Assembly (NCBI GenBank): GCA_949752735.1
Contig: OX457047.1
Location: forward strand, 3,781,282-3,845,281
Length of the DNA stretch: 64,000 nucleotides
DNA from: Lumbricus terrestris
Lineage: Eukaryota; Annelida; Clitellata; Crassiclitellata; Lumbricidae
Direction of reading: 5' to 3'
Part shown: piece after piece, positions 558 to 63,930 of the stretch
Layout of the letters: each line of letters starts with the position of its first letter
Numbering within the stretch: position 1 is the stretch's first letter
The notes under the pieces: model-generated
What the model was told of the DNA's origin: nothing
What the model saw: only the letters and a program-made list of their open reading frames with translations
The model's database searches: none
Position numbers and translations under genes: made by a program

Positions 558-598
558 TTATACACCTCTTATATATTGATGAACTAAATTATATATTT
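558..598 (+). promoter_or_regulatory. Candidate snRNA-type promoter
   Basis: TTATACACCTCTTATAT starts at 558 and TTATATAT starts 31 bp later. Predicted start is about 620. No known RNA is recognisable downstream. Confidence 0.45.
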
Positions 599-853
599 AA
601 GGCAGAAAATTTATGACTTGACTTACACTAGAACATATGCTGATGCTCATCAAGTAATAATTGCATGATTATTTGAGCTGATCGATCCACACCATAGATT
701 CTGGTCTCCACAGGATTAACTTCGCGAGACCCTACCGATCAGGCTTCTAATAATTATGCGCAATCGTTGCATAAATAAAATGAAATTAAAAATTATTATG
801 ATTATTAAGTTTGAGCGAGCGTGCCGATATCTCAGCCACTTTATCGTCTTAAG

Positions 854-1028
854 ATGATGCCAGTCCAGAGTCAAACGTGGCGAAAGAAGGAGGGCGACAC
901 AATCATCGTCATCAATGGAGCAGCAGCTGAGCATCATTAAACCTGATGATCGAATTCGTAGCCAAGTATTTATGTCCGCACTCAGGTAGCGCCAATCCAA
1001 CAAAATCCGAAGAGAAGGAGGGCAACAT
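854..1028 (+). repeat. Two copies of a dispersed GCCAGTCC...GGAGGG motif
   Basis: GATGCCAGTCC leading to GGAGGGCGACAC (854-900) is followed by a second, more diverged copy (985-1028). Related copies occur near 14494, 20630, 21020, 32260, 39150 and 50690. The family shares CCAGTCCCAAGCCTGGATAAA and GGAGGAGGG blocks. Function unknown; probably an old dispersed repeat. Confidence 0.4.
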
Positions 1029-1499
1029 CAACCCCCACCCACACTTAGTCATTGGTTAGAATTATTCTGTCTTAAGCTTGGCATTTGACGACGTTAGTTC
1101 ATAGAAACCACCTAAAAATCAAGCAGAATGTTAAACACCGTTAAAACGTTTCCAATCTGTGCTATATTAATTTCGATTGATTTTTGTGTCTTACAATGTT
1201 GCTGTCACAAATAGTTTTTCCTGTCGCTGGTAACGTCTTTTCCTTTGTTACAATGACCTTGCGTGTAACTCTGGAATCAGCGTCTGTATTAGTCTGAATT
1301 TTGTCTTTGTCATAAGATGTCAAGTTCAATGGAAGCTGAATCTAAAGAGGAAACTATGCTACGACGTTCCAACTAATTCCTTAAATAATATCATTGCAAT
1401 TTTGAATAGATGTAATTAATCACCGAATTGATAGGGCTGTTGGCCATGATATCAAACGTTGTAAAAAATCCATTTACAAAACCCTTTAGAACAAAAAAA

Positions 1500-1593
1500 A
1501 GAGCTGTAGTAATTATGCCAAACAAATTGCTTTAGGGACTACGGCCTCTGCAGTTGTCATAGTCCCTCGTCAAATCTCGGTCCATCCATCCTA
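1500..1593 (+). repeat. Conserved-loop hairpin family member
   Basis: Stem arms AGGGACT (1534-1540) and AGTCCCT (1561-1567) enclose ACGGCCTCTG and GTTGTCAT. GTCAAATC and GGTCCATCCATCC follow. The stem differs from the consensus CCAGGGT/ACCCTGG on both sides but remains fully complementary. No clear promoter box is seen upstream of this copy. Confidence 0.55.
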
Positions 1594-2225
1594 GAATTCG
1601 TGTCATATATAACTAATTATTCATTTGTTCATTTGTTTGGGGCAGTTATTCAGCTCCTCTTAATCTATTATACTCAGATGCACCTCCGGTCCAGATTCGA
1701 CTAAATAGGACAATCTTACGGCTGGCTGCTACTAACGTAGGCTATCTGTTATCATTGTAGGTGAGAGAAGGGTGAAAGATATATATTGTTATTAACAAAT
1801 GCAGTAATGAAGATATTGGTGTAATAATTAACAAATGAAGCAATGTTTATGTTGAAATTGGTCTCATTCAATCTGATCTAGATAGAACGGCTTTTAGAAT
1901 GTCAACTTAAACTGTCACCACTTTGTATGATTTGTTCCAATTGTGAACTAACGAAAACTAGAAATTGCGCCGTATTTGAGATTGCAAGCTTATTTATGCA
2001 AGCCGGAACACCAAGCAAAGTTTGATAAGTTTGGAAGACACGGGTGAGTTTAAGAACGACGTTCCATAGCAAAAGAAACAAACCCTGCTTATTATCACCA
2101 ACCAGGAATTCTACAGAATTATTATAGTAATAATAATAATAATAATAATAATTATAATAATTATTATTATTTTTTTTTTATTTTTTATTTTTTTTAAATT
2201 TTGATTAAAAACTAGTCCGGAATTG

Positions 2226-2488
2226 TCAGGCCTCGTCTTGAGGGTTTGAAGAGAAAGTTCCTTTAAAAGCGACCAAGTTATAGCGCTGAATGTTGACAGA
2301 TAGACGCTGGAAAAGAAAAGTTGCTTCGCGTCTGTCACCAGTAATGGACGATATGCGCTTGCCGATTTCGTTGATGATGGCTGATGGATTAAGCGGGCCT
2401 AGGGTCTCTATGGCCACTGGTTGGAAGATGTAAGAAGCGGGAAGACCTGCATATTTCTGGGTTTTACGGTTGGCCGCCTGCACTGATG
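2226..2488 (-). pseudogene. C-terminal piece of the R2-type LINE ORF
   Basis: Eighty-odd residues in one frame (QAANRKTQKYAGLP, then FQRLSVNIQRYN). They continue the reading frame broken at 4090. Removing the intervening element together with one CCGG leaves the flanks in the same frame, reading LVGPASVQAANRK across the joint. It ends in a normal stop before the tail. It is a fossil with no independent function expected. Confidence 0.6.
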
Positions 2489-2492
2489 CCGG

Positions 2493-6243: not shown

Positions 6244-6283
6244 TTAGACACTTTTTTAATGTGTCTGACCGACCCTTTATAAG
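6244..6283 (+). promoter_or_regulatory. snRNA-type promoter (PSE-like box plus TATA) of the U2-like gene
   Basis: TTAGACACTTTTTTAATG starts at 6244 and TTTATAAG starts 32 bp later. The U2-like 5' end is at 6306, 62 bp from the box start and about 28 bp from the TATA. PSE near -60 and TATA near -30 is the classical snRNA promoter layout. This copy calibrates the other sites in the window. Confidence 0.75.
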
Positions 6284-6305
6284 CTTCAGAAATGTCTGAA
6301 CTGTT

Positions 6306-6480
6306 ATCGCTTCTCGACCTTTTGGTCCAGATCAAAGTGAAACTATATACTCTAGGAGTATTACACCTGACTTCGTATCCGTACGATGATAGTCAGTCCT
6401 CTTAGTCCCAAGAGTATAATTATATCCTGCTGCAATGGCCACTGACACCAGCTAACCCTCTGTAAGCCCTTGCAGCAGGA
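6306..6480 (+). ncRNA. U2 snRNA-like RNA gene or pseudogene (variant body)
   Basis: The first 34 nt match the 5' domain of U2 snRNA with few changes, starting ATCGCTTCTCG. U2 stem I is kept by paired changes: GACC (6316-6319) pairs with GGTC (6324-6327) around TTTT, and TCT (6312-6314) pairs with AGA (6329-6331). After AGATCAAAGTG the sequence departs from U2. The branch-site-pairing GTAGTA is absent and I see no good Sm site. Further complementary pairs follow, including CTCTT/AAGAG and CCTGCTGCAA (6426-6435) with TTGCAGCAGG (6470-6479). The 3' end is uncertain. It may be a divergent RNA, a U2-derived SINE-like element or a U2 5'-end pseudogene with an intact promoter. Confidence 0.55.
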
Positions 6481-6569
6481 GGGACCGTTTAAATACGGTC
6501 AAACTTTCACTTTGAAAGAAGAAGCAGGAGGGACCGTTTAAATACGGTCAAACCTTCAATTTGAAAAAA
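6475..6569. repeat. 49-bp tandem duplication with internal palindromes
   Basis: GCAGGAGGGACCG at 6475 recurs at 6524 with the following 35 bases nearly unchanged. Each copy contains GACCGTTTAAATACGGTC, a near-palindrome. It lies at the presumed 3' end of the U2-like transcript. Confidence 0.75.
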
Positions 6570-9819: not shown

Positions 9820-9860
9820 TTAGACACCACTAAAACGTGAGACATCGTGGCTATTTTAAT
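9820..9860 (+). promoter_or_regulatory. Candidate snRNA-type promoter
   Basis: TTAGACACCACTAAAACG at 9820 and TATTTTAA at 9852, 32 bp apart. Predicted start is about 9882. Downstream, a SINE copy begins at 9959. Confidence 0.6.
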
Positions 9861-9958
9861 CATGCGTCATTTACGACATTGTTCAAATGTAGGCGCAGCC
9901 ATCATTCCTAACACACACTAAACTGATGTATGCATGCATTTGTACACAATAATGTGGT

Positions 9959-10304: not shown

Positions 10305-10712
10305 CTGTAACTTAAACATTTGCATCGACTCCCGTTCTTGCCATTTAAAAAAATTATTTTCATTTCGGGGATACGTTGAAATTAAGTTGAGGTCTTGATT
10401 GGCGTGTCACCTGAAAACTGAAAATTATAAAACATTTTCTTTAAATAGCATTGCCTGAAACCATCTTGAAGGTGTTTAATAAGAAATAACGCTGTCCGAC
10501 GTCCGATGGTTAAGCGACATCTAACGGCTTTTACCAGTTTTAAGGGCGACCTAAATTACCTCGGCAATGGCTGCATTGATCGTAGCTTTCACTCTTAGGT
10601 TAACTTAAACATCTGCATCGACTGCCATTCTTGCCATTAAATAAATATATTTTCGTTTCGTGGATATATTGAAATTCAGTTAAGGTCTTAATTAGCGTGT
10701 CAGATAGGACTG
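10305..10712. repeat. 110-bp direct duplication around a promoter
   Basis: 10305-10420 (TAACTTAAACATTTGCATCG onward) recurs at 10600-10712 at roughly 85 percent identity by eye. The promoter at 10440-10479 lies between the copies, which suggests a former tandem array of about 295-bp units. Confidence 0.65.
10440..10479 (-). promoter_or_regulatory. Candidate snRNA-type promoter
   Basis: Minus strand TTAAACACCTTCAAGATG at 10479 and TATTTAAA at 10447, 32 bp apart. Predicted start is about 10417. The region between box and TATA resembles that of the site at 38745. Confidence 0.6.
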
Positions 10713-10840: not shown

Positions 10841-11345
10841 ATCATTATTGTTAATTGTGACGTCAGTAAACGTGAGGCCGATGCTAACATTTGTGAAATA
10901 CTCAAGATGAGCGCTCAATGCCAGAAGAATTTTAGAATTCTGCTTAGACAACTGAAAATCTTTATTTATTTAACTATAGATACCGGTAAACCATTTCATT
11001 TTTGTCCCTTACAAACGGAGCTTTTTAAATCGATTCAAAAGTTTAAAGACACCATCCACCCACTGATTTCGATCTCTACACACAAGTCACATTCCGAAAA
11101 CTGAAAGCGCTGCTGATTCCACAAAATGCAACCAGGATTTCCCCAACCACCTTTCTTGTTACTTCAATTCGGAGAACCATGTGAATGTCTCTTGGTCTTT
11201 TGGATCATATTGTCTGAAACCGCTATTAAACACGCGGCCTGTTCATTGAGTTTGTTTTGACTGAGCGCCTGCTGCGAATGAGTTCGGTTGATGCATAAAT
11301 CGGTAGATTACGAGTTACATCAAAGCTTCTTTTCCTTCTCTGTCC

Positions 11346-11580: not shown

Positions 11581-11847
11581 TATATCAAAGCCATCATTTA
11601 TGAAAGCCCAACCACGACGCATACAACAAACGGATATACGAACGTCTGCACAGCCATTGTGCTCTTGCTTTGTTTCAATTTCAGATTGCAGATGAATAAT
11701 TGCTTTAGGTTTCTTTTAATGACCGACCTGGATATTAATAAGTCTAATATTCGATGGTAATTGCAACGTTTCAATAATATTGCTTATACTGTGAAATGCC
11801 ATCTACACAAGTAAAATTCCAATTATTCATCCATTTTACACTTCAAT

Positions 11848-11886
11848 TATTTATAGCACTGATGAATATGATTTAAAGGTGTCTAG
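11848..11886 (-). promoter_or_regulatory. Candidate snRNA-type promoter
   Basis: Minus strand CTAGACACCTTTAAATC at 11886 and TATAAATA at 11855, 31 bp apart. Predicted start is about 11824. Confidence 0.65.
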
Positions 11887-12530: not shown

Positions 12531-12748
12531 GTTCAACCCTGTTCTTGATCGACTGCTGCATGGCCAAAAAGAAATCCAACATCCGATGATAAATTACCAA
12601 AAAGTTATTCCTTTAAACGACAGTCGGTTTATTTGGTATGATAAGCGATATAATTATGGAGCCCGTCCCATTGTATGACTATAATCTTTGTTGCTACCTG
12701 GACTTCAACCATAGCATCAAAATTCAAAATTTTCGTGAGAATGGTGAA

Positions 12749-12788
12749 TTTATATAGTGCATTAAACAAGTGATTTAGAGGTGTATAA
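12749..12788 (-). promoter_or_regulatory. Candidate snRNA-type promoter
   Basis: Minus strand TTATACACCTCTAAATC at 12788 and TATATAAA at 12756, 32 bp apart. Predicted start is about 12726. The downstream minus strand has a possible distant hairpin-family relative around 12660-12700 (GTCC...TAGTCATA...GGAC). Confidence 0.65.
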
Positions 12789-12882
12789 TTTAATGCAGAT
12801 CGCAAAATTTCTGTAATAAACGATATGAAGTCGCACGTAACTAACGAAAGGGCTGAATGTAATCGATTTTAATGAAGGGATC

Positions 12883-12921
12883 TTTTATAATATTTTTATG
12901 ATAACGTTAAGAGGTGTCCAC
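12883..12921 (-). promoter_or_regulatory. Candidate snRNA-type promoter (decayed)
   Basis: Minus strand GTGGACACCTCTTAACG at 12921 and TTATAAAA at 12890, 31 bp apart. The surrounding sequence is paralogous to the site at 13421. Confidence 0.45.
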
Positions 12922-13382
12922 ACTGTCTTTATATAATTCATAGCATGAAGTTTATTTGACATTATTTATTTTTGAGGCTGCCACAACCTTTTATTTCGAG
13001 TTCGCAATATCTTGTGAGATGTTTAATTGTTGCTTAACGACACTTAGCCATGCTCAACCATACCCCAGTGTGTGATCTCCATGGCTCATCTGGAAGGGGG
13101 TCAATGTTTCTAGTGAGAAAACTTTAGTGCCAGGCGACGAACCCTGAAGCTCCTAGCGCCGATGATGGGAATGGTCTGGGGAGATGGATGCCCCCATTCA
13201 CAAATTGTTTTGAATTTACACACTGCAATATAATATCTTTGAGGTGTCACCTAAAAAAATTGTTCTACGCCTACTATTTCAATGCTGATAATGAGTGTGT
13301 ATGAATTAAATGAATATAATTGTGATTACAATAATAATATCTTTATGAATGAATTTCAACAACTCAGTAATGAACGTATCAA

Positions 13383-13421
13383 TTATAATATTTTTTATTA
13401 TAACGTTTAAGATGTGTCTAA
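13383..13421 (-). promoter_or_regulatory. Candidate snRNA-type promoter (decayed)
   Basis: Minus strand TTAGACACATCTTAAACG at 13421 and TATTATAA at 13390, 31 bp apart. Its upstream side shares TGTGATCTCC and TATCTGGAAG blocks with the unit at 12921. Confidence 0.45.
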
Positions 13422-15777: not shown

Positions 15778-15933
15778 ATTCAATACGATGTCATATTCAG
15801 CTCAATGCTTACTCTCAAACCGTAGTCATTTTATACCTTAAGACATTTTATCTTGACTGTTGATGTCATCTAAACGATTAGAAAATTTATTGTTTGGGGA
15901 GAAGCAATTGAATTCGCGATTGTGTTAATTGAG

Positions 15934-15976
15934 GCTATAATATGAGATCAGTGTAACATAAGTAAAAGGTGTCTAA
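15934..15976 (-). promoter_or_regulatory. Candidate snRNA-type promoter
   Basis: Minus strand TTAGACACCTTTTACTTATG at 15976 and CATATTATAG at 15944, 32 bp apart. It is paralogous to the site at 39495, and the box is identical in both copies. Confidence 0.6.
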
Positions 15977-19996: not shown

Positions 19997-20136
19997 CGGC
20001 CATAAGTCAAGTCAAGTAAGTATCATTGCTTAGCGACGTCTTTGACCGCCATACAAGAGCTATAATTGACACCCATCTCTATGTAAGTTTTGGAATAGGC
20101 AAATCCCAGACAATTGGGGAAAAAACTGACTAATAG

Positions 20137-20176
20137 TTCTATATTGCACCGGTAAATACGAAATAAAGGTATCTAA
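20137..20176 (-). promoter_or_regulatory. Candidate snRNA-type promoter
   Basis: Minus strand TTAGATACCTTTATTTCG at 20176 and ATATAGAA at 20144, 32 bp apart. Predicted start is about 20114. The RTE LINE ends about 100 bp further on, so its insertion may have cut the transcript. Confidence 0.5.
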
Positions 20177-20830: not shown

Positions 20831-20861
20831 AGTTCCGAACATAATTTTGAAAGACTTGTCA

Positions 20862-20900
20862 TTTATATAGTGCTTAGTGCCTGCATTTTACGGTGTCGAA
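20862..20900 (-). promoter_or_regulatory. Candidate snRNA-type promoter
   Basis: Minus strand TTCGACACCGTAAAATG at 20900 and TATATAAA at 20869, 31 bp apart. Predicted start is about 20838, so the duplicated block at 20641-20830 would be its transcript. Confidence 0.62.
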
Positions 20901-21456
20901 CAAGAGCATCAATGTTATTTACTGCTTCGTATGTCTAGTAGTATCTTGTCGCTGATACGTTCAGCTTAGTGACCCTGTGGCATAGTGAAGCTGACTATCG
21001 GTTGTCCTCCTTCTTTATCCAGACTTGGGACTGGCACCACCAAAATGGGGACAGATGCGGTGCGTATACTCTGAACTCTGTATGACGTCATTGCCTATAA
21101 TATAACGACTCAGAACCAAGTAGATAACCCGATGAAATAGATTTTTCGACATGGCATTTTAAAAGGGGAACCCGACATATAATAGAGGGCATTACAATTA
21201 TTATAGTCGAGCCGAGAGACCACAAAGTCAGGGACAAGGGAGACAGCAGTAGTTACATAACGACTCAGCAGCACGCAGATTATAACCACCGCGTTACAAT
21301 GTCGTTAAACTTAAACTGTTCTACTAATTGTGTGTGAAGATCTTCCTCAATGCCATACAATTTCTGTATAAGAGTAGTAGTTTCGAATCCGTCATGTCAT
21401 TGTTGCAACGCCTTTTGATTTCTGCTCAGCAATTTAAACCCACCGCCTTTGCGTTG

Positions 21457-21495
21457 TTTATATAGAATTCTGGATAGTGTGTTAAAGGTGTCGAA
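21457..21495 (-). promoter_or_regulatory. Candidate snRNA-type promoter
   Basis: Minus strand TTCGACACCTTTAACAC at 21495 and TATATAAA at 21464, 31 bp apart. Predicted start is about 21433. Nearby CAACGC and GCGTTG on the minus strand could pair. Confidence 0.68.
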
Positions 21496-22470: not shown

Positions 22471-22546
22471 TAATGACCATTCGACTTCCGTCTGTGTATC
22501 GAGTCCTATCGTCCAACAGCCAAGTAATGGCCCAGAACTCGGTGAT

Positions 22547-22586
22547 CAATTATACTTATGCTAAAATTTGTTTTAAAGGTGTCTAA
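22547..22586 (-). promoter_or_regulatory. Candidate snRNA-type promoter
   Basis: Minus strand TTAGACACCTTTAAAACA at 22586 and TATAATTG at 22554, 32 bp apart. Predicted start is about 22524. Confidence 0.62.
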
Positions 22587-23344: not shown

Positions 23345-23380
23345 GATGACACCTTTAAAACGCTATTCACTATAATTTTA
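23345..23380 (+). promoter_or_regulatory. Possible snRNA-type promoter
   Basis: GATGACACCTTTAAAACG is a strong box, but the TATAATTTTATA element starts only 26 bp away. It is the one site with clearly shorter spacing. Confidence 0.35.
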
Positions 23381-24395
23381 TATTTGAAATTTTGTCAGAT
23401 TTGATTAATTAGAAGGGTTACATTTACATACAATAAATTAGAGAGCGGCAGTCTCAAATCTCGATAAAGGAGGAGGGCCACCTTATTCATCTTTGTTGCA
23501 ACACATCACCGCGGATGTAAGGGCAGTCTCAGTGGAATAGCCTTCACCATAAGCTGACTGAAAAAGACTGAAGTTGGGAGAACACATTTTATATGTTAAG
23601 TTCACAAAATAATGGAGGACTGTGCTAACCGTATTGCATGGCTAGCCGAATTCTGATAAACACGCCACAGCACTATAATTAATGTGCAGTGACATCTTGT
23701 TGTGAAAACGTCATTTATTAATCAGGAGTTTAACGACATTTTATAGCTACAAAGGTTGTTGACGTCTTTAAAGATTTTAACGTATTTCCATTCACTTTTG
23801 TTCAACTGTTCAGCAGTTTTTGTCCTTTTTCTCTCTTTTTCTTTTTCTTTTCCGAAGTTTGATGACAATATTATTATACATTTGCACATGTCATGATGGT
23901 CGCATAATACAACATCCAGGCTATTTAGTTAGATTAACATCAAATATTTATCGCATGTTTACAAGCAATTTTGAACATTCATTGACCAACAATAAAATTA
24001 TTCGCAGATTTGATATTCAACATTAAAATAAAAATCAAGGTATTCACCCATCATTTAGAGCCATGAACAATAATAGCAAGAGCAAAATTTGTCAATGCCT
24101 GTTTCGTCTATTACATAATTATTTAGAAGAAAAAAATACGTTTCAGGGATGCATTTATGTCCATGCTGTTAAAGAGCCAACAGCATTACAGAATAATTGG
24201 AATAATCATTCTGCATGAAAACTTCATAATTTATATTATAGTTATTTGTGGCGCCACACACCGAAATGAGCATTAAGGTTATTGTCAAACATATTGCGTT
24301 CGATGCATCATTTCAAAGGCTTTGTCTCAGGCGTCAAAATGACACAAAAAAGCTTAATTCTAGCCGAAGATACAAGTAAAAAAGTGATCCAAATA

Positions 24396-25344: not shown

Positions 25345-25726
25345 TGATCCAAATAACTAAATATTTTATATGTAATATTTTATATGTAATATTTTGATCC
25401 AAATAACTAAATTAATTAATTAAATTTAATTAATAAAAAATGATAATTTGCATGTCAAGAGCATTACAATCGCTTGGCTACTTGTCTTTTAAAAAAGTTC
25501 AAATTAAAAAAAAAATCTTTTTGGTTAAATTTTTAAAAAAAATCGTGCACCGTGAAGATTATTTATAAAATTGGTATTTCACTTAAAAGAGGTATGTTAA
25601 CTATTCAGTTTTTGCTGTTTAATGGGCTGCTTAATTGCAATTCCTATTGGCGTTGTTTTAAGCATCTTAAGCCGGACTTTGAATGTGTGTAATTTCATTG
25701 ATAGATAAATAGCTTGCTGGGCAGAC

Positions 25727-26723: not shown

Positions 26724-26762
26724 TTAGACACCTTTTTTGCAAGCTTATTATGCTGATAAAAG
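26724..26762 (+). promoter_or_regulatory. Candidate snRNA-type promoter
   Basis: TTAGACACCTTTTTTGC at 26724 and GATAAAAG at 26755, 31 bp apart. Predicted start is about 26786. Confidence 0.48.
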
Positions 26763-26972
26763 CAAGATTGCCAAGGTACTTTAATCAAATACGTCAACGT
26801 GGGCCCATTATTAGTTATACCATTCAAATTGGGAAGCTATGATGAGATAAAGATAAGATAAGAATATTCTTTAATTCACCAATTGCTAACCACATTTTGG
26901 TTTACAGATATGGTACAATTAAATGAAATATACATGACATGTAATAGGCAGATACATATTAACGGAGTAATG

Positions 26973-27610: not shown

Positions 27611-27912
27611 TTATCCATTAATGAACAGTAAATGCAACTGTAGATCTGCGGCTACTTTATACTCTTGAACAGCAATTTAAAACGAAACCGTACGATCCAT
27701 TGCATAAGCCACATTATGAAGAGGATCAACAAAAAACGATTTCAACTTGAGAACTGGTACACGAGGCAGCCAACACGCAGCGCCATGATACCAAAACGTT
27801 AAATCACTGCCTTCGACACCGGTTCGATTCCAAAATTTCAGAGATATGGATTTTTACTTCGACCTTGTGGAATTTTTGATTTCTCTACACTAGCGTTAAA
27901 ACGAGAATTGCT

Positions 27913-27952
27913 TTTATATACATTGTTTGGACGGGCATTTAAAGGTGTCTAA
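27913..27952 (-). promoter_or_regulatory. snRNA-type promoter candidate (near consensus)
   Basis: Minus strand TTAGACACCTTTAAATGC at 27952 and TATATAAA at 27920, 32 bp apart. Predicted start is about 27890. One of the best matches in the window. Confidence 0.75.
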
Positions 27953-29630: not shown

Positions 29631-29648
29631 TTAGACACCTCTAAATCA
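29631..29648 (+). promoter_or_regulatory. PSE-like box without TATA
   Basis: TTAGACACCTCTAAATC at 29631, but no TATA-like sequence 31 bp on. Two sense hairpin copies follow from 29742. Confidence 0.35.
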
Positions 29649-34334: not shown

Positions 34335-34378
34335 TTAGACACCCATTAAACGTTATCACCATACAAAATATATAAATA
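34335..34378 (+). promoter_or_regulatory. Candidate snRNA-type promoter
   Basis: TTAGACACCCATTAAACG at 34335 and TATATAAA at 34369, 34 bp apart. Predicted start is about 34397. Confidence 0.65.
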
Positions 34379-35418
34379 TGGGACGCAGTTCCTCAAAATG
34401 TCTGCTGTCCTATGTCTTTGGAATAATCTACCTTCTGCAGGGATGCCACTCATAGCTTTTTCCACCTAGATCTAGGTATTTTCGGTCTTGTCTAGGTTTC
34501 TAGGTTTTTTTTGGTAAGGATCTAGCCTTTTCGTCTCACGACGGCTGTTTCGACACTTTACAAACAAATTTATTTTTTAAAACTGAAATTGCACAAAAGA
34601 CGTGAAAAAATCGAAATTTTGGGAATTTGGACCAAAAATTGCAAATTTTTGAGCGAAAGACTAAAAGAGAAGGTCACATAAATTTTTTGGGAAGGAAAAG
34701 AGACAGCAGATTTTTAATCATTGGACAACTAAATAAAGGTCGTCAGAAATTTCAAGCCGGAGAATTGGACAATTCTATGTATTTTACAGGGAAATCGTCA
34801 ATCTAGCATTTTCTAGCCTTTTTTCGACCGGATCTGAGAGTGCCTGGATTCAATCTTCATTGATAGTAGCCGAAATATCCTATTTATAGCATTACTGTAA
34901 AGTTACTTGCAGGTATCTATCTAATAAAATTAGAATATTCTTTAATTTACCAATTGCAATTCGAATTTTTTTGCACGCAGCTATAATAGCATAGCTAATG
35001 TTGAGCCTCAGTTAAATCGAAACTACTTCTGATCCTCCATGCTACTTCGCAATATGGAAAAGAATATTTGCAGCCATCTTCCAGCTAGTAAAGGTTTCAA
35101 TGACGAAGATTGTCTGCTCATTACTTTGGTTAAGGAAGTTTTTTCTGCAATTGTTTTTTTTTATTTCTAGAGGGCTTTGTATTGAAATAGTCGATGAGTT
35201 GGCTATTGTTTTCGCGACACTAATGTCACTTTGCTCTGTTCCCAATGGTTGACACTGACACTGTCAGAGTAGTCTTACATGTACTAATAATGCACATGTG
35301 TACTGAAGATTAGACGTAATGAGCCACAAAATAAAACGAATATTAATCAAACTCCGTTTCATTATCACGATCCATAGTCAGAAACGCGTAGGAGTCCAGT
35401 GCACACTGCACCGTCGAC

Positions 35419-35458
35419 TTAGACACCTTTATATCGGAATTCCCAGTGGTATATAAAT
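35419..35458 (+). promoter_or_regulatory. snRNA-type promoter candidate (near consensus)
   Basis: TTAGACACCTTTATATCG at 35419 and TATATAAA at 35450, 31 bp apart. Predicted start is about 35481. A SINE lies 70 bp further on. Confidence 0.75.
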
Positions 35459-35550
35459 TATTTCCCCAATAATATTGCTGGTTCGTTTTCATCAAAGTGT
35501 ATTGTGCTTCGGTTTTACGAATTCAACGTATAATTTTCACTTGCTTGTAT

Positions 35551-38006: not shown

Positions 38007-38046
38007 TAAGACACCAATAAAACTTTTCTGGCTGTGTTTATTTAAC
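38007..38046 (+). promoter_or_regulatory. Weak snRNA-type promoter candidate
   Basis: TAAGACACCAATAAAAC at 38007 and TTTATTTAA 31 bp on. Predicted start is about 38069. Confidence 0.4.
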
Positions 38047-38706
38047 GAACGCGTTTGATTTTTGAATGATAAAACTTTCGTGTCATAATAATATAGGCCC
38101 TATTATAATACTACGTTAATATCATGCAGAAATAAATAAATACAATATCTTTGAATTGACTTCAGATAAATTTATTTTCAGAACAAGGGCTTAATTTTGT
38201 TTGTGTTCCACAGTTGGAATTCTGACTCAATCCAAGTCCAATAATTTGATCTCAGATTGGGAAAAGTACAAAAAAACTTATAAGCAAACAGACACGCATT
38301 CAACGAAGTACAGACACACACAGATACATTGAAAGAGACAATAATTATAGACACATCAATTATAGCGTCGAGAAAAGACCGACACACAAACTGCGATTCA
38401 GACAGACGAAGAAAGACACGCAGAGACCGACAGAGAGACAGCAGGACAGACAGAGACACATACACAGAAACTCTCACACCACTCAGGCAGGCAAAGACGC
38501 AAAAGACGAACATTGGGGGAACGAAGAGGAATCAGTATCACAACGAAATTCCGCACTCTTCAGAAGACAATGGGTCTTGGCATTCTCCCAATTATAATTC
38601 CATTCTCAACTTTGGGGCAAGGTCGGAGGTCAACAGTTACTGGTCAGTGATCTGGAATGTCATTCGATGTGTATGTTAGCTTGAACCCATCTGGAGAAAA
38701 TTTCAG

Positions 38707-39414: not shown

Positions 39415-39455
39415 AGTTACTGAATTCAGTAAAGCGATTGAGGTCAATTGAGGCC

Positions 39456-39495
39456 TTCATATAGAATTATAGTAATAAAAGTAAAAGGTGTCTAA
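39456..39495 (-). promoter_or_regulatory. Candidate snRNA-type promoter
   Basis: Minus strand TTAGACACCTTTTACTTTT at 39495 and TATATGAA at 39463, 32 bp apart. Predicted start is about 39433. Confidence 0.62.
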
Positions 39496-40639
39496 TGGAA
39501 CGACATGATTTTGCTTAACCAACCTGGTTTATTTTCAGTGATTCATCTCTTGGTCTGGCAATTTAATATCGTCGAATCCACTCAAGTTGGTGAGCGATGG
39601 TGAGGATTTCAGAAGATCAAATATTGAAAAATGACGAAGGTTATGGCCAAATATTACTACGGGTCAATGCAAACCGCGAAAATTCTTCTTTACTTTGAAA
39701 ACCGCTTTCACATTTTGCAATTAGCTTTTCCATCAATCCCGCCAGCGCACGAACCTCGCTCTGGATAAGTAGATCACCCACACACTGAACAAAAATCTCT
39801 CAGACAATCGGCCATAACGAGGCACATATGGATGTAGAGGAAGAACGAAACAATAATTGTTTGATTTCCATCACGCTCGAAATTCTTCTGTACGCGTTCC
39901 CTCTCACGTGATTTCCTGTTTGGAAGCAGAGATCCGTCGAAAGAGGAAAGAATTGGTTCTCTTTGATAATAATAATAATAATGGTGACATTTCAATTAAG
40001 TTGGAGGAAATTGAGACGGTTAGATTAAGGCCCAACAGCCCGCCGATTGTATGTATGGCTTGACGGTATTATTTATAGATAGTAATAAAACATTAAAACG
40101 GTATGCAAATATTATTATATTTACAGTACAATGAAACAACGTTAACAGATGAGTCTAAAATGCTATTTTTTCGTTTTAGTGTATTAATATTTCCAATAAA
40201 CAAACCTCAGATATAAAATTATATTGAAACATTCTAGGAGAAATATACCTTTCGAAAATTAAAATCTTGGTTCTTTGCTAGAAATTTTCCACGTGGGGAC
40301 GTAATCGGTTTCAACATCGTCCATGAGTACCACCCGTCAATTCATCGACGTAAAACTTCCTCATATGTTGTAATTTCGGTTCTGTAATGTACTAAACATT
40401 ATTCTATCGAAGTTAACGGTTTCTGATGCCATAAAGTCATAAACTGTCGTTGAACTCCAGATGCATGAATAAGTTTTGCTATGTCACTGCATAGGTTTCA
40501 TACAGAGGACTCTCAATGATAACAGATACGATGCAGCTCATTTTATTTGGCTCTCGCCTTCGCCAGCAGTTTCTTAAGCTCGTTTTTCTCTTGTTTCTAT
40601 TATTATTATTGCAAGTGTGAATCTGAGGCGTGGATAGTC

Positions 40640-42593: not shown

Positions 42594-42824
42594 GATACAA
42601 ATAGATGCAACGACATAAGAAAGCAAATGCTTTTATTAAGTATTTATAAAACCATCTTTACAGCGCCCAATTAGCTGTTCCATTTAAGCAATTTGGCAAA
42701 CATCCTTTTCAATTGACAGTGCATTCAAATTTGAATCTCTTGTGTCACCATTTTATTACTTTTGTCATAATTATTGTTCTTGCAGGACTTTGGCCGATGA
42801 AAACGCAAAGCCGACAGCAATCGG

Positions 42825-42866
42825 TTTATAAAAAGCATATTTTGCCTGCGTTTTAAAGGTGTCTAA
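42825..42866 (-). promoter_or_regulatory. snRNA-type promoter candidate (near consensus)
   Basis: Minus strand TTAGACACCTTTAAAACG at 42866 and TTTATAAA at 42832, 34 bp apart. Predicted start is about 42804. CCGATTGCTGTCGG just upstream of it can fold. Confidence 0.72.
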
Positions 42867-45260: not shown

Positions 45261-45456
45261 CATGTATACATGGCAGAGTCGCGAGGTTTGACGTTAAGGT
45301 CGATCACGATTGATGAAGACATCAAACCATCCGCCGCATTGATTGGTTGGGCTGTCAACGTGCTACACCAGACCGAATTACTCCATGATGTCACCGAACC
45401 CCACCACCGCATTCTGCAAACAGTTCAATATTGTACTATCTTTCGCACATGACATA

Positions 45457-45495
45457 TTTATATGATGGATGAAAAATATAATTAAAGGTGTGTAA
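45457..45495 (-). promoter_or_regulatory. Candidate snRNA-type promoter, duplicated unit A
   Basis: Minus strand TTACACACCTTTAATTAT at 45495 and CATATAAA at 45464, 31 bp apart. Predicted start is about 45433. Confidence 0.68.
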
Positions 45496-45915
45496 ATTGC
45501 AAGCAGAGTTTTTGTGGTTTCCATCGTTTATCGACGCATTATTGCATTCCCAAAACCGTAGTCTTGTGTTTCCCTTAGGGCCGATAATAATATTTATGTT
45601 TGATTAATTTAGATGCCATCCATGATGAGAGAGCATCAATGGCACTGGACATTCGACACCGTGAACAATGCATCAGCGCCAAAGCAGTGAGCATAATCAT
45701 GTAGAAATGGCAGAGTCGCGAGGTTTGACGTTAAGGTCGATCAGCGACGTATCTGTCATCACGAGTGATGAAGACATCAAACCATCCGCCGCATTGATTC
45801 GTTGGGCTGTCAACGTGCTACACCAGACCGAATTACTCCATGATAGATCTGAACTCCATTGCCCCGTGCTACAAATTTAACATTATACCACATACTTTCT
45901 CAGGCACATGACGAT

Positions 45916-45954
45916 TTTATATGATGGACTTAACATATAATTAAAGGTATGCAG
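45916..45954 (-). promoter_or_regulatory. Candidate snRNA-type promoter, duplicated unit B
   Basis: Minus strand CTGCATACCTTTAATTAT at 45954 and CATATAAA at 45923, 31 bp apart. Predicted start is about 45892. Confidence 0.62.
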
Positions 45955-46730: not shown

Positions 46731-46972
46731 TCCTATTATTACTCATTCGATTATTTGTAAAGGATATGTTTTATTTTACTTCAGTTATATATAGTTAGTA
46801 GGAATTTGAATTCATATTTGGAGAGCCCTTACAAAATTTAATGTTGAGGTCGACGGACATATTTATAGAATTATTGAAAGCATTCTGGAGGTTTCTACTT
46901 TCTAAGTAAAAGTTCGAATCAACTGCCAAATCTGGACTCGATTTTGTAAGACGATTGGATGATATTTTATTT

Positions 46973-47734: not shown

Positions 47735-48015
47735 TTTGAATCAACTCACTTCATCGCAACTGCGAGACATTCTCTGCTTCGTCGCAACAACGTTGAACTT
47801 GCTCGAGAAACTCGGATCCCGTAGTTATTATTACACACCTTTGAATCGATATTTTGTACACTATATAAAAGCTTGAAAACTGCAAGAGCCAATTCTTCCC
47901 CGTTGACCTTGTTTCGTTTACGTCATAATAGGTCGATTTATAACTAGATCGCATGACATGAAACAGATCTCCAGATTTTGAAACATAGCATCAAATCGTT
48001 TCTCGTTTTTGAAAC
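47735..48015 (+). repeat. Promoter-containing paralogous unit, copy 2
   Basis: Matches 31010-31290. Head to tail with copy 3. Confidence 0.8.
47831..47870 (+). promoter_or_regulatory. Candidate snRNA-type promoter
   Basis: TTACACACCTTTGAATCG at 47831 and TATATAAA at 47862, 31 bp apart. Predicted start is about 47893. Confidence 0.7.
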
Positions 48016-48264: not shown

Positions 48265-48650
48265 ACTCACTTCATCGCAAGTCGCAACAACGTTGTGCTT
48301 GTTCGAGAAAGTCAGGTCCCGTAATCATTGGACTGACTTTAGACACCTTTATATCTAAGATTTTATGCCCTATATAAATGCTTTAAACTTTGCAAGCACT
48401 AAGTGCGCTTTCGAGATCGACTATTAATTAGATCACAGACTTTGAAACATCACATCAGGTTGAGAAACATTGCTCTGATCTATAGCGATGCTCTTGGGGT
48501 AACTTATGGATCGGTATATAGCGAGTCATCTCATGGGTGATAATAATTATTGCTTTGATGTGAGTTGCAGCCGATTACCAAAATAGATGCATAGTTCACG
48601 TTATATTCTGTATGTCTGTCAATAGTTTCAGTCGCTTATGACACAATGAC
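48265..48650 (+). repeat. Promoter-containing paralogous unit, copy 3
   Basis: Continues the unit after the SINE and matches 31050-31470 to its end (ACGTTATATTCTGT, then CAATAGTTTCAGT). Confidence 0.8.
48339..48379 (+). promoter_or_regulatory. snRNA-type promoter candidate (near consensus)
   Basis: TTAGACACCTTTATATC at 48339 and TATATAAA at 48371, 32 bp apart. Predicted start is about 48401. Confidence 0.72.
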
Positions 48651-49300
48651 CACAATGAAACATTTTGTTTGCGATCATGCTGGTGTTTCTTGGTCCTTTG
48701 CCAGAATATGGTGACAATTAGGGTGGATCGAAAGCACAGGTGAAACAAAATTCTGCATTGATAGTGCGGATAGTGCGCATTGATAGTGCGGAAAATTTGC
48801 CAACTGGTACCACAACCGCACAGTAAAAATTTGGGAATTGTTGTGCCAAATCTTGAGGGTCCCCAAAGGACTAACGTTTTGCTATATGGGACCTGTAATA
48901 GGACCACAGGCATTAGAAATCATATGCATGGTCGTGGATCATCGCAGGACTACATGACAGCGTGTTGCATTAAGAGTCGAGCATAAACAAATTATTCGAC
49001 ACATTTTGAATGCATAGCTGCACTATATGTTTTTCTTCATCAACGCTCAGGCAAAATGACACGATAATCAATTTGTTTTTAGTGTTGGTGGCACTATCAA
49101 TCGAGATTCTTGCCATGATAAGATAAAAACAACCATATCGCGATTTTGCGCCCATGGGCGTAACTTTCCTGTGAAAAGTGGTGGTGACTATGATATTCAT
49201 CTGCTCGCAACTTCTCCCTGAGATGTTTAAGAATATTCTAATGTTGTCTTATCTTACGTCAAGCACACTATCTTAGTTAAAAAATCAGCGCCCATACCTC

Positions 49301-49340
49301 TTATTATAGCACCTGTTAACTACGTTTTAAAGGTGTGTAA
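49301..49340 (-). promoter_or_regulatory. Candidate snRNA-type promoter
   Basis: Minus strand TTACACACCTTTAAAACG at 49340 and TATAATAA at 49308, 32 bp apart. Predicted start is about 49278. Confidence 0.66.
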
Positions 49341-51092: not shown

Positions 51093-51131
51093 TTAGACAA
51101 CTTTTAAACGGATTGATCTGTTGTTATTTAA
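51093..51131 (+). promoter_or_regulatory. Weak snRNA-type promoter candidate
   Basis: TTAGACAACTTTTAAACG at 51093 and TTATTTAA 31 bp on. Predicted start is about 51155. Confidence 0.45.
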
Positions 51132-52078
51132 TATAATATTGTTATTTATCATGCTATTAATTGAAAGTTCTCTTCGACAATGTTTTTGAGATAACAATCT
51201 GACAAAAATGCATAAAATGTAAACGTGAGCGATTTAAGTTTAAGGGAACTGGCAATACTCCTAAAGTTAAAGAAGATGTTTGCTGAGATAGAGCAGTTAA
51301 TTGTATGTGGTTATCGAAGACTTTACAAATACTGCTTAGCGGCATTTTTGTAATGTCGCAGCATCTATTTGATTTCTGGCGCTTTTAACTGCCCCTCCTG
51401 TCGCAAGACGTCGCTAGACCTAGAATCTATAGGCTACAATGTCTACTATAGTTAACAATATAATGATGTCGTCCCAGTTAGTATCATCTTTGTCAGATCT
51501 GCTCTTTTCGACGATCACTTAATACAAATGATGATTCTACAAATCTGCGCTAATACGCGATTTAATTTCATTCTGAATCGATTTTGTAACTGCTTTTTTC
51601 TGGTTCACACTCCTCTCCTGCATTGAAATTGCATTATCAAGTCAAGTCAAGTTTATTGTTCCCACAAAAGAAAAATACAACAGTTACACATTTTGTTGTG
51701 CATATGTAGTGAAGAAAAAAAGTAGATAATTTTTATAATTACAAGTTATAGGATTAGTATTAGAGGGAAACAATAGGAGCCCCAGAAGGGAAGATCCCGC
51801 TAGGTAGGGGCCCTATGTGCATGATTATTCATTGCAAAGATGATGGATAAATGACGTTTGTTGATAGAACAGGTGGGAGACTTGGATGTAGTTGAGTGGG
51901 TCATGGTGGTGACACGAGGGAATAAACTATAACCACAACGAAACATAAAAGAGAAGACAGAAGAGGAAGAAGAAGAAGAAAAGAGAGAAAAGAAGAAGAA
52001 AAGAGAGAAAAGAATCAAAAAGCCACTATTTAACCAACAGCCAACATCAATAATTAGTTTATATAACATTATAACAAT

Positions 52079-52530
52079 TTATATAACATTTTCCCCTGCA
52101 TGCGCACGCATCAGACGTTTGAATTGAGTGAATGCCATGTCGATCTTCAGACAAGGAGGTAGACTGTTCCATATTAAGGGTCCTTGGTATTTGATAGAAA
52201 ATTTGCGTGTGTTGGTTCTGGGATAAATGCTTATGTAGTCCCGCTTATTTCTGGTTGCAATGGAATGCTCGGTTTTTTTAAAGTAGGATATAAAACAGGG
52301 TGGGAGGAGTCCATTATGGAATTTATACATAAATTCGGATGTTTGGGTAAATTTGATTTGACTGATGTTAAGTAGGTTAAGTTCTAAAAATAGAGGTTTA
52401 GTGTGGGCATTAATAGGCGATCTGGTTATGAGTCTGATGGCTTTCTTTTGGAGTATTTTCAAGCTAGTCATATGGGATTCGTAGGTTGAGGTCCAGATGA
52501 AATTACAATAAGTAAAATCAGAGTAAAGTA
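52079..52530 (-). pseudogene. C-terminal continuation of LINE ORF2
   Basis: A deletion-type frameshift near 52520 moves the frame. The new frame reads YCNFIWTSTYESHM, LKILQKKAIRLITRSP, then YQGPLIWNSLPPCL and ends at 52079. This is the standard CR1/L2 C-terminal domain, so ORF2 was about 1100 residues before the shift. Confidence 0.82.
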
Positions 52531-58291: not shown

Positions 58292-58330
58292 TTAAACACC
58301 TATAAATCGTTTTCATCCGGAATTATTAAA
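58292..58330 (+). promoter_or_regulatory. Candidate snRNA-type promoter
   Basis: TTAAACACCTATAAATCG at 58292 and TTATTAAA 31 bp on. Predicted start is about 58354. Confidence 0.48.
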
Positions 58331-59164
58331 ACCGTTTTCCCTCCAGTTGCAAGTCATCTTATTGCATGTATAATAAATTAATAATCTGGCGAACACGACG
58401 ACCACGTAATCATAGATTCATTATAATTATCATTGTGTCAAACACGAAGTGTAGCCAGAAACTTAAATATTTAATTAAACGATCACGTAAACAGTTGTTA
58501 AATTTGAAGGAGTAATGCATACTGCATATTGTTTCCATTTCTTGGGACGCTGATATTATTATTGAGCGACACAAAGTATTGTCGTATAGAATGTAGGAGT
58601 TCAGTTCTTTCTTTTCTTTCCCTCTCCACCTCCGCATCCTTCCTGCAATTGATTTTACATGATTTCTGCCGCCATGCATTGCGGGCGCTGATGGTAGAAG
58701 TTCTATAAGGAGAGAACTTACAGTAATTACACTGTGGCTTCTTTTTTACGCTTAGGCGGGGAAGATGCTGGGTCGTAATCTTGGAAGGCTATTATGTTAA
58801 ACACTCTTGTTGGCTGCTTCCTTATCGAAGTGAGTGCGGCTCGTTCATTTTAGCATAATCATAGGCCTACATGTATAATGTCGGCTGCGATGGTAAGTTT
58901 ACTCAATGTGGTTTTATCACTAGTTGATAAGCTATATAAGATAAGACTATCCTCGTGTTAGACCAAACCGGCAAGTATATAACCAGGTAATGTTCACTAG
59001 TCCATCCATCAATTCATTCATCCACCCGCGCATCTGTGCATGCACCCTTCCATCCACTATGTGGCGCGGTGGTATAGGTGTATGTTCGGTGTCTTCAAGC
59101 AGCAATAACTGTCTACATACGCGATACATTGATGATAAATATTGTATGTAGGTCTTACTATGCC

Positions 59165-59345: not shown

Positions 59346-59387
59346 CTAAACACCTTTACATCGCTCTTTCCAGCGGTTATTTTTATC
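59346..59387 (+). promoter_or_regulatory. Candidate snRNA-type promoter
   Basis: CTAAACACCTTTACATCG at 59346 and TTATTTTTAT 32 bp on. Predicted start is about 59408. Confidence 0.48.
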
Positions 59388-59419
59388 CGTTCAGTCGCAA
59401 ATATTTTCGGTCATCATTC

Positions 59420-61049: not shown

Positions 61050-61855
61050 TTATAACTATGAGTCTCTCGTAGCATGATAAACCTGAGGAACCTTTTTACA
61101 CCTCTTGCAAAAACCACCTAAAACTTGCGACCTAGACCACATCCCTTTGTTCTACCAGTTAAAGATGTTAGAAACTTTATTCCGAGGGTTCTCTTTGACA
61201 ACCATTAATGACATTGTTATCTTCACATTATTTTGCTGTTTTCTTTTAAAGTGTATTAACACTAACTGGGTGCGGTGTGTCACCCTGATTTGTCTAATTA
61301 AACGAAGATTAACAATGATGTTCCTGTAGGATCCTTTACTGGAATGCCCACTGTAAGCTAGCCTCTGACTCACTTCTCTGTATTCGCTGCCAAATCTCAA
61401 TCTGTCTCATTGTTCTGTATTTCTGTACAATATATTATGCTAATCACCTACCTTGGTACTCTTAACTACTCTCAAACTCCCCAGTGTTTGGTTGTACTCT
61501 AACATTAGTGTACAACATGAGATTTAGTACCAAGGACACGTTTAAAACCAACCTTATACTAGTAACCATGCCGGGTATTAACAGGCTCCTTATTCGATTG
61601 ATATTGGGGAACCCCTGATAGCGGGACTTGTCCCTTTGGGGTCTCCATTTTAAGTGCACAAACGGATATGATCCCTTGTTTTACGATGTGCTGATAATTC
61701 TTTGCGCTATTTTAATCACTAATGCGGTTGTTTTGTTTGTGTTCAATGTGCAACGGTTGATGCTTTAATAAAAGGTTATTTGATTGGATGATTGATTAAG
61801 GTGGACGGACGGATGCATGGTCTTTCAATTATTTCCCGACAGCGGATTGATAGAT
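61050..61855. other. Stretch without recognised features
   Basis: Short open frames only. No family recognised. Confidence 0.4.
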
Positions 61856-61860
61856 ATGTG

Positions 61861-61903
61861 TTAGACACCTTTAAATTGTAGTCATCATATGTATGTATAA
61901 TTA
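61861..61903 (+). promoter_or_regulatory. Candidate snRNA-type promoter
   Basis: TTAGACACCTTTAAATTG at 61861 and TATGTATAATTA beginning 31 bp on. Predicted start is about 61923. Confidence 0.6.
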
Positions 61904-62555
61904 AAATTTGAAAAGAAAATATCTGTCTTGAAATAAATGGAATCTCCGTTGGATCAGTCGCTGCATCGCATCACACAGTATAATAATTATTATGATTAAG
62001 CTGCGTAATTTAAAAAAATCGGGACGTGATCTGAACTCCTCGATATTTGGGTAATTATAGATTAATGACAATACACTGTTTACAACTCGAATGACTAGGA
62101 AACCTCTTGTAGTGCTTTGCACGTGAGCCTTTATTGACATGGGTTCCAGAGGTCAGTTAAGTTTGCCTATACATGCAATTGTGCACATTAGTAAATTACA
62201 TGTAGTAAAGCTTTTGTCCTGTCGGAAACTTTACTCTTACACGCGAATTCTAACGTAAACTTCGATATTACCCAGAAATCGGACAAGCAGCATTGCCTCA
62301 ATTTTTCTGACGCCTATTATATGGTCGGTTGGACGCATGAAAGAAGTGTCCAACGAGATCATCAAATTAACGAGTGCTTGGCTAAATTTACGGCAGCTAG
62401 AACCTTTAAATTTGACCGTGAACGTGCCTTGCTGTGGCCTACAGCTACTTACACCAAGTGTTTTCTGGAACTTGTAATCCGTTACTTCTATAGCACTGGT
62501 GTCTAATGCACGAACCATTATTGATGGAGCATCACCAAAAATGGAAGTCAATAAA

Positions 62556-63017
62556 TGTGATGCGTTCTGAGATAAGGGCCCATAACTCTCTCCCCAGTTA
62601 CGGAGAAAACTGGCTCTAAAGCAAGCGTAGGTCTATTTTGGTTAGCCTATAGTATGAAAAAACTAATTAGCATCCCTCTTTGTCATCGATAATTTTTCAA
62701 AAAAATAATTATTTCTTATCTATAAGATTTTCAGGATTTTATCTTCTATACTTGCAGAACACAATAAAAGCATCAACTCCATAACTTATAACTAATATAT
62801 ATATATAGCATGCTTTCAAAGATTGCTGAAAGTTTAAATTGAAATATCTCGAAATTGTCATTTTCGCATGTTCTGTACTCGAAAAATTAAAAAATATACT
62901 TTGGATGGAGATATCAACTTCATTTTTTCTGTATTTTAATGAGATATTACTCAGGCATATGAACCAACACTTAACTCCATTTGAGACTTATGGGCCCTTA
63001 TCTCAGAACGCATCACA
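62556..63017. mobile_element. MITE with perfect 30-bp terminal inverted repeats (462 bp)
   Basis: 62556-62585 and 62988-63017 are exact reverse complements (outer TGTGATGCGTTCTGAG, inner GGGCCCATAA). No transposase and no clear target duplication. Confidence 0.88.
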
Positions 63018-63806
63018 AATATCCAGACAGCCAATCCTTTGAATAGTCGACTACAATAGGCGCTATAACAAGCTACGGAAATCATACGATTGGACTGAGA
63101 GACAGGCTCCCTTCATCTTGGACTTCGGTGTGTAGAGAAAATTGCCAAACCGTTTCAATTATTCACTAACTATTAGGCTACTTTTATTAACGACTTTCAG
63201 GAACGGCCTCCATGTCCTTCGAGGCAATTTCCCGCCAAAGAAAACCGTCGCCCAGGTCTCAGGGCCAGTAGGCTATGCACAATTTTGAACTTCCGAGCAA
63301 AGATGACCGGAACTTTGTTTCTAAATTTCTTTTCAAATATAATATTACTAAAGCATCATAGTCTAACTATCGATTCAATTTAACTCCAATAACTGATTGC
63401 TCCCTCTAATATTGCTAGTTCAATGTAATTTTTGTCTGTCTCAATGTGACAGGTTGCTGTTTGCCAACCTGTTTTTGCTCAATAAACGAATATGAATAAT
63501 ATTATATTATATTAATCATACAAGTAGGTTGCCTAACAACAACTACAGCTTTGTTAGCTACATGTGTGTTTTAAGGTCAGTGCTGTCTTGGAATTCGTAA
63601 TTTATTGCTTTAGCCTACGTTAACAGTCTATAATTATTTCCGATAGATGTACTGTAATAAAGAATATAAAGCCATGTCTATTTTCTCTTTACACCAAAGT
63701 CCGAAATGAACGAAGACTGACTCTCAGTCCAACCGTATTATTTCCAAAAAGTTGTCATAGCGCCTATCGTAGACGACTATTCAAAGGATTGATCGTCTGG
63801 ATATTG
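63018..63806. mobile_element. Long-TIR element (about 790 bp)
   Basis: 63018-63145 and 63672-63806 are inverted repeats of about 130 bp at roughly 80 percent identity by eye. Shared blocks include ATCCAGAC, CAATCCTTTGAATAGTCG and GGTTGGACTGAGAG. It abuts the preceding MITE with no gap. The interior holds no recognised gene. Confidence 0.75.
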
Positions 63807-63891
63807 GTTGACTTCCCTAATTCTCTTAAGTGCTAGCCACTTGTGGAAAATTACAGAAGTTTGATTGAACGATAGCAGAGCCGCGGTGGAT

Positions 63892-63930
63892 CAAGACACC
63901 TCTAAAACTTTACGATTACAAATTTTATAA
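63892..63930 (+). promoter_or_regulatory. Candidate snRNA-type promoter
   Basis: CAAGACACCTCTAAAAC at 63892 and TTTATAA at 63924, 32 bp apart. Predicted start is about 63954, so the transcript leaves the window. Confidence 0.52.

Follow-up and report, generated by a model that had tools for sequence, protein, structure and literature searches.

The 64-kb stretch of Lumbricus terrestris DNA analysed here (C13:3,781,282–3,845,281, hereafter the window) carries about 40 copies, on both strands, of a two-part element made up of a TTAGACACCTTTAAAWCG box and a TATA box 30–31 bp from the box start. The initial annotation had taken such pairs for small nuclear RNA (snRNA)-type promoters, a proximal sequence element (PSE) plus TATA, of unknown small RNA genes. 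We compared the element with the snRNA promoters of the same genome, whose assembly comprises 1.06 Gb in 331 contigs (large contigs examined, 43.9–98.9 Mb), and the pairs appear to be promoters of the U2 type.

The 18-mer TTAGACACCTTTAAATCG, with up to three mismatches, occurred at 18 places on the two strands of the window, whereas 30 order-3 Markov simulations gave 0.1 on average and never more than 1. A box+TATA matrix, which was trained on these same data, found 43 sites, while 10 shuffles gave 0.8 on average and at most 2, and the reversed box matrix found three; the non-redundant list holds 40 sites, 19 on the plus and 21 on the minus strand, with a median distance of 1054 bp (Table 1). 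The fitted TATA element lay at offset 28–32 in 34 of 47 window candidates, as compared to 94 of 2000 random places. Without a spacing prior, the offset still peaked at 30–31, in 61 of the 92 boxes that had a TATA; the other 39 of the 131 boxes had none above threshold. When offsets of 27–34 were allowed, the TATA fell at 31 in 74 array sites and at 30 in 39 (113 of 150), and 69 of 81 exact genome strings had a spacing of 29–32, where 29.5 would be expected if spacing were uniform. These results bear out the recurrent box and the fixed spacing described in the initial annotation, and the box-matrix scan recovered all 19 of its distinct named sites. Two of the three sites that it gave as deviating, 34335 and 42866, do deviate, with an offset of 33; at the third, 23345, the element is weak and placed at either 23 or 31. 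The site at 29631 has a good box (two mismatches) and no TATA at the usual distance.

The flanks of the sites are mostly unrelated, as had been claimed: among 1176 site pairs, 92 upstream and 87 downstream comparisons exceeded the 95% level of random pairs, with about 59 expected. This bears on the idea that the pair was spread by a transposon family as its conserved terminus. Some matches do fall in repeats (one repeat accounts for the box-matrix matches at 36342, 36796 and 37186, which stand outside the 40-site list), and a number of sites belong to duplicated groups (31108/47831/48339, 42866/51093, 45495/45954, 15976/39495, 6244/62353 and 12921/13421). However, extended homology of the transposon kind, which had been named as evidence against the promoters if present everywhere, is missing from most sites, box and TATA are separated by varying letters at a constant length, and the element is common to canonical U2 genes. 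A transposon end was rejected on these grounds, and we consider it a very remote explanation.

Table 1. Sites of the two-part element in the window. Positions (window coordinates) run from box start to predicted start unless stated otherwise, and scores are those of the box+TATA matrix.
Feature	Position	Strand	Score
Box, TATA 589, predicted start 620	558..620	+	25.2
Box, TATA 1162, predicted start 1193	1131..1193	+	32.6
Palindromic-half box (TTAGACAC..GTGTCTGA), TATA 6275, predicted start 6306	6244..6306	+	25.5
Match, other half of the 6244 palindrome	6268	-	
Predicted structured RNA, U2-like 5' stem-loop I and 3' hairpin, end approximate	6306..6481	+	Rfam U2 26.2 bits; z -6.2
Box, TATA 9851, predicted start 9882	9820..9882	+	30.9
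Box 10479, TATA 10448, predicted start 10417	10417..10479	-	25.1
Weaker site, box, TATA-like 10974	10944..11005	+	19.1
Box 11886, TATA 11856, predicted start 11825	11825..11886	-	30.6
Box 12788, TATA 12757, predicted start 12726	12726..12788	-	33.8
Weaker site, paralogue of 13421	12859..12921	-	15.2; homology
Box 13421, TATA-like 13390	13359..13421	-	23.5
Box 15976, TATA-like 15945, paralogue of 39495	15914..15976	-	22.8
Box 20176, TATA-like 20146	20115..20176	-	22.2
Box 20900, TATA 20870	20839..20900	-	24.8
Box 21495, TATA 21465	21434..21495	-	32.1
Box 22586, TATA-like 22557	22526..22586	-	28.4
Box, weak TATA-like 23376, alternative at offset 23	23345..23407	+	22.1
Weak site	25539..25599	-	15.7
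Box, TATA-like 26754	26724..26785	+	21.5
Box 27952, TATA 27921	27890..27952	-	31.8
Box without TATA at 30–31, best TATA-like at 20	29631..29648	+	box matrix 26.0
Box, TATA 31139 or 31144, paralogue of 47831 and 48339	31108..31170	+	24.8
Box, TATA 34368 (offset 33)	34335..34399	+	28.6
Box, TATA 35449	35419..35480	+	36.1
Box, TATA-like 38038	38007..38069	+	19.3
Box 39495, TATA offset 31, short repeat inserted just past predicted start	39433..39495	-	outside 40-site list (redundancy filter)
Weaker site	40047..40108	-	16.9
Box 42866, TATA 42833 (offset 33), paralogue of 51093	42802..42866	-	34.9
Box 45495, TATA 45465, paralogue of 45954	45434..45495	-	26.5
Diverged box, TATA 45924	45893..45954	-	15.4
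Weak box, TATA 46868	46837..46898	-	14.5
Box, TATA 47861	47831..47892	+	33.3
Box, TATA 48370	48339..48401	+	36.6
Weaker site	48995..49054	+	16.7
Box 49340, TATA 49309	49278..49340	-	31.8
Box, TATA-like 51124	51093..51155	+	28.1
Box, TATA-like 58323	58292..58354	+	27.6
Box, TATA-like 59377	59346..59408	+	25.8
Box, TATA 61893	61861..61924	+	30.4
U2-type palindromic box, TATA 62324, paralogue of 6244 to about 13 bp before start	62293..62353	-	15.6
Box, TATA 63923	63892..63954	+	23.1

The snRNA promoters read for comparison were those of U2 and U6 genes. The genome has at least 46 scored U2 matches, and 20 loci were fetched: 12 dispersed copies, 11 of which lie near chromosome ends, and eight of a tandem repeat on C9. 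Scored with the array box matrix, every dispersed canonical U2 gene but one reached 5 bits (11 of 12), the exception (L018) being the mid-chromosome one. The distance from box to +1 is 59–62 in all 12, and that from box to TATA-like element is 30–31 in 11. The dispersed genes L010–L017 and L019–L021 share with the array these distances and the box core ACACCTTT; they differ from it in their TATAGA or TATGTA elements, in starting with ATCG and not with YRNT, and in having a 192-nt structured body, which array sites lack while mostly carrying stronger TATA boxes. The tandem U2 repeat at C9:29.54–29.81 Mb (L022–L029; eight loci fetched, one scored) has another upstream region without the box, and the U2 genes thus fall into two classes by promoter. 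Among the canonical genes listed, the start lies 29–31 after the TATA in 14 of 16. The expectation that bona fide snRNA genes share the box holds for the dispersed U2 genes and not for the C9 repeat. Judged by its letters and distances, the box is the element that this genome itself uses in snRNA promoters, namely those of the dispersed U2 class, and the array shares the geometry of these U2 genes. The initial annotation is therefore supported in its promoter part, in view of the dispersed U2 genes and of an RNA predicted to start at 6306, described below.

PSE plus TATA is the RNA polymerase III (Pol III) arrangement in vertebrates, which speaks for Pol III type 3 genes, such as U6, 7SK or Y-like small RNAs. 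However, in the clearest U6 gene of this genome (L051) the box is followed by a TATA at 36 and a start at 67, and a TATA at 36 was found in only 3 of the 92 boxes with a TATA. As the array has the spacing of U2 (31) and not that of this one U6 gene, we infer the use of RNA polymerase II (Pol II) rather than Pol III. Box spacing separates the two classes also in plants (PMC9845283), with the Pol III genes being the closer-spaced ones there. In addition, runs of four T (T4) are not enriched 60–300 nt after the start, and the RNAs are predicted to be unstructured. Pol III type 3 genes were rejected, as the array shows neither the U6-type spacing nor an enrichment of T-run terminators, and we give them little credence.

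The initial annotation had placed the start at box+62, which agrees with the U2-like RNA that begins exactly there, at 6306. A T was favoured at TATA+34 in 24 of 47 window sites; this preference was predicted from the window and then tested outside it, where it was found at 45 of 97 sites (p 5e-4). YRNT was present at the predicted start, with two adjacent starts allowed, in 33 of the 97 outside sites, while 198 other offsets gave 14.1 on average and at most 27. By region, it was found in 16 of 46 sites in the C13 flanks and in 17 of 51 on other chromosomes, and more weakly in the window (10 of 40, control mean 6.2). The canonical genes begin with letters that do not fit YRNT (ATCG for U2, GTAC for U6), and the signal is thus the array's own.

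Downstream of the start, positional k-mer counts gave no trusted common motif, and a candidate 3' box (ATAATTATTAT) was dropped after them. The sequences are predicted to be unstructured, with a mean folding z of -0.01 over 136 sites, as compared to -0.26 for random places; among the 37 window sites folded, only 6244 stands out, and two others lie just below -2. The sites thus do not resemble structured snRNA-type genes, and the "small non-coding RNA genes" of the initial annotation are more likely to be very short, unstructured RNAs. T4 runs are equal to or below random from 60 to 200 nt after the start, and the T-rich zone peaks just before the start, not after it.

The start also coincides with a limit of homology in duplicated pairs (coordinates from box start, predicted start +62). 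The homologous block that runs through the upstream region and box stops at or before +66 in 18 of 36 pairs, 11 of them at +45 to +66; these are the numbers for looser filters, while narrower ones gave a stop by the start in 10 of 14. The pair 45495/45954 offers the best case of local divergence, with an identity of 0.98 at +110 to +200 and of 0.70 at +42 to +105 (p 1.6e-5). These observations bear on an alternative in which the promoters are active and the act or the domain itself is the purpose: SNAPc and TBP would coat chromosome-end chromatin, or unstable long RNAs would be started, with no functional short product. The lack of a common downstream element, structure or terminator fits this, so that the sequence demands no defined product. 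Against it, the copies retain a start at an exact distance, marked by an initiator-like signal, and the end of homology by this point in half of the duplicated pairs speaks for a role of the start as such. We regard this alternative as improbable.

The RNA predicted at 6306 is U2-like over its first 34 nt, including paired changes in stem-loop I, and continues into a different, strongly folded body (z -6.2 over 200 nt). Its Rfam U2 score of 26.2 bits is under the gathering score of 46 and comes essentially from the 5' stem-loop I only; it is not a whole U2 RNA. The 6244 promoter has three relatives, 62353 and two sites about 13 and 21 kb past the right end of the window (C13, about 3.859 and 3.867 Mb; L035 and L036), which are alignable with it to about 13 bp before the start, and the four related promoters precede three kinds of body. 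L035 and L036 differ mainly between +17 and the start and have a common folded body that begins GCACCACTGGGCCG, for which no Rfam match was found. Instead of short RNAs, larger structured ones are thus predicted as the products of a few copies, 6244 among them.

Such copies also lend themselves to the main rival, a field of decayed or re-used U2 promoters. Here, duplication of U2 genes at chromosome ends would have scattered Pol II snRNA promoters by birth and death, with bodies decayed or replaced, and most of these promoters would be relics or make aimless short transcripts. Chromosome-end U2 genes do sit among array sites: 35 kb at 11 such loci hold 22 sites, some of which are the U2 promoters themselves. 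The U2-type promoter at 6244 with its U2-like start before another body, its relatives before different bodies and the many duplicated blocks (36 pairs) point the same way. However, relics should lose box and spacing together with the body, whereas the box, the 30–31 spacing and YRNT persist where the flanks show no detectable homology; YRNT is not a U2 feature; and the exact core pattern counted below has 866 pairs, more than the scored U2 copies. We consider this rival unlikely, though stronger than the others.

The array is not the 64-kb cluster that it had been taken for; it belongs to domains found across the genome. In its exact form, the pattern TTAGACACCTTTAAAN{10,20}TATAWA has 866 matches in the genome (start–end pairs, overlapping ends counted) and five when reversed, while the gapless exact 18-mer has 75 places and none reversed. 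Of the 84 exact-pattern matches listed on C1, C4, C5 and C6, 80 have an end no more than 8.2 Mb away, a limit picked after inspection of the place list, with 17.9 expected if uniform. The same holds for 45 of the 48 exact 18-mer places on contigs of known length (counted by hand); the remaining 27 are on C7, C11, C14, C15 and C18. Several places on C14 and C15 lie 9–18 Mb from the left end, and "mostly near chromosome ends" is therefore a fair wording. Matrix sites number 59 in the 80 kb beside the window (both flanks) and one in 30 kb of mid-chromosome sequence; the clusters examined on C1, C4, C5 and C6, picked because they contain an exact match, have 37 in 90 kb. In 144 kb with 86 sites there was a single exact match start, and a rough extrapolation from this ratio gives tens of thousands of sites in the genome.

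The window also contains open reading frames (ORFs) of non-LTR (long terminal repeat) retrotransposons with endonuclease and reverse transcriptase domains at 16911–19319 (+) and 52468–55386 (-), in which none of the 40 listed promoter sites is located. A Pfam search of 19 window ORFs found only these two kinds of domain, in three ORFs. A protein-coding family was rejected as an explanation, as Pfam scans and ORF lists show none, with small exons not excluded. A 42-bp tandem unit at 20335–20446 is part of a short dispersed repeat, which also adjoins the promoters 39495, 20509, 29631 and 58292 close to their predicted starts, perhaps through insertion into open chromatin. SINE (short interspersed element)-like repeats, recognised by eye from a B-box of tRNA type (GGTTCGAATCC), lie at 26271–26624 and at about 10.6, 35.6 and 48.0 kb, one of them in a 176-bp tandem. 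Weak matches to the twister-P1 ribozyme were found at 50654–50720 (+, 28.9 bits), 32253–32304 (-, 26.1 bits) and 21014–21062 (-, 23.4 bits), for a gathering score of 67.2. A tRNA scan and a repeat-pattern search gave no match, and Rfam at gathering score gave none in the window nor in 15 of the 20 fetched 10-kb stretches. The box+TATA patterns had no match in viral and prokaryote collections, apart from a looser one that hit a single viral contig, whose site count was not above that of its shuffles.

We favour the reading that the sites are individually promoted short-RNA genes, numbering in the thousands, with U2-type Pol II promoters, whose products would be Piwi-type guide RNAs as at the type-1 PIWI-interacting RNA (piRNA) loci of nematodes, and we put its probability at about 0.48. 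Each box+TATA would recruit SNAPc, TBP and Pol II, and each copy would start one short, unstructured RNA of its own. Transcription would end early, and the short RNA may then be loaded into a Piwi-type Argonaute and guide silencing. We infer these steps, from binding to silencing; what the sequence shows is a U2-like box, spacing and start distance, the added YRNT, domains mostly near chromosome ends and mostly unrelated, unstructured downstream sequence. SNAPC3 is encoded at one genome locus, and Piwi-domain exons were found at seven genome places.

Several points weigh against this reading. It is built on sequence, and the RNA, its 5' end and promoter occupancy are predictions. On the side of kinship, the TATA-like elements of the U2 genes score poorly (6.2 to -0.6 bits), and the matrix found the box in only one of three U6 genes (L051); in L050 and L052 it picks other places, with comparable letters at 67 by eye only. 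Piwi-domain exons do not tell Piwi from Ago. As for the start, only T at +34 was fixed beforehand, the exact YRNT offsets having been chosen after a count over all sites, and the motif also resembles the initiator of Pol II genes in general. Downstream, T4 runs occur within 30 nt of the start at 0.29, as compared to 0.19 in random places, and the AT-richness at TATA+50 to +120, where the nematode loci have an AT-rich pausing signature after the start, is slight (GC about 0.36 versus 0.39). The 36 duplicated pairs are not independent, as members are shared and some lie in local tandem repeats; homology continues past the start in the other half of them, beyond +150 in 13, and with lenient gap costs the post-TATA block differs from its flanks at p<0.05 in only three of seven pairs. 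A comparison of the predicted 5' ends with the rest of the window gave no sign of transposon-directed guides: what matched was chance similarity over short lengths, a repeat that has inserted at two sites and, beside 10479, a repeat of 33 nt at 88%. Finally, nematode type-1 loci lack a TATA box (PMC6436959).

Taken further, the short-RNA reading would mean that a non-nematode animal with a large genome of many chromosomes independently recruited its U2-type promoter for a genome-wide collection of guide-RNA genes (piRNA mini-genes) that are transcribed one by one and change fast, by extrapolation tens of thousands of them, in domains mostly at chromosome ends; this we put forward tentatively, with less confidence than the short-RNA genes themselves. 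If true, snRNA promoters became small-RNA gene libraries at least twice, and the choice of polymerase may again follow the distance between two boxes. Should the short-RNA reading fail, a field of this many U2-type promoters near chromosome ends would still be one for which we found no counterpart in our searches of the open-licence literature. Among the papers listed there for piRNA and SNAPc we saw none on such loci outside nematodes; the extension of nematode-type loci to other organisms is stated as still unknown in PMC7917550.

Among known systems, the human SNAPc-bound genes comprise some seventy loci in human cells (PMC3499247). They have PSE-type promoters like the array and serve both polymerases, and the array is unlike them in its density, with 43 predicted matrix sites in 64 kb. 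The U2 genes of sea urchins require a TATA sequence, and they are like the array in having a TATA in a Pol II snRNA promoter; we know of no array of such promoters.

The closest comparison is with the type-1 (Ruby-motif) piRNA loci of nematodes, each of which is transcribed by Pol II with SNAPc (PMC6436959, PMC7917550 and PMC11262695). They resemble the array in an upstream motif of snRNA origin, in separate starts that number thousands and fill domains of megabase size, in YRNT at the start and in unrelated, unstructured products, and SNAPc and Piwi-domain proteins are encoded in the present genome too. The upstream SNAPc-type motif appears to be shared in kind and not in letters, as the motif here is this genome's PSE. 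YRNT, the start motif of nematode piRNA loci (PMC6436959), stands at the predicted start of a minority of the array sites. The array sites are clustered densely in large domains, as the nematode loci are. Further marks of the nematode loci are a capped precursor of about 28 nt, which is loaded into Piwi, and PRDE-1. The array differs in its TATA at 30–31, in a full PSE that is kept and in being known from sequence; because the TATA box is present and the RNA is predicted only, we do not file it as a member of the nematode type-1 family. Its domains, again unlike those of nematodes, lie mostly near the ends of many chromosomes.

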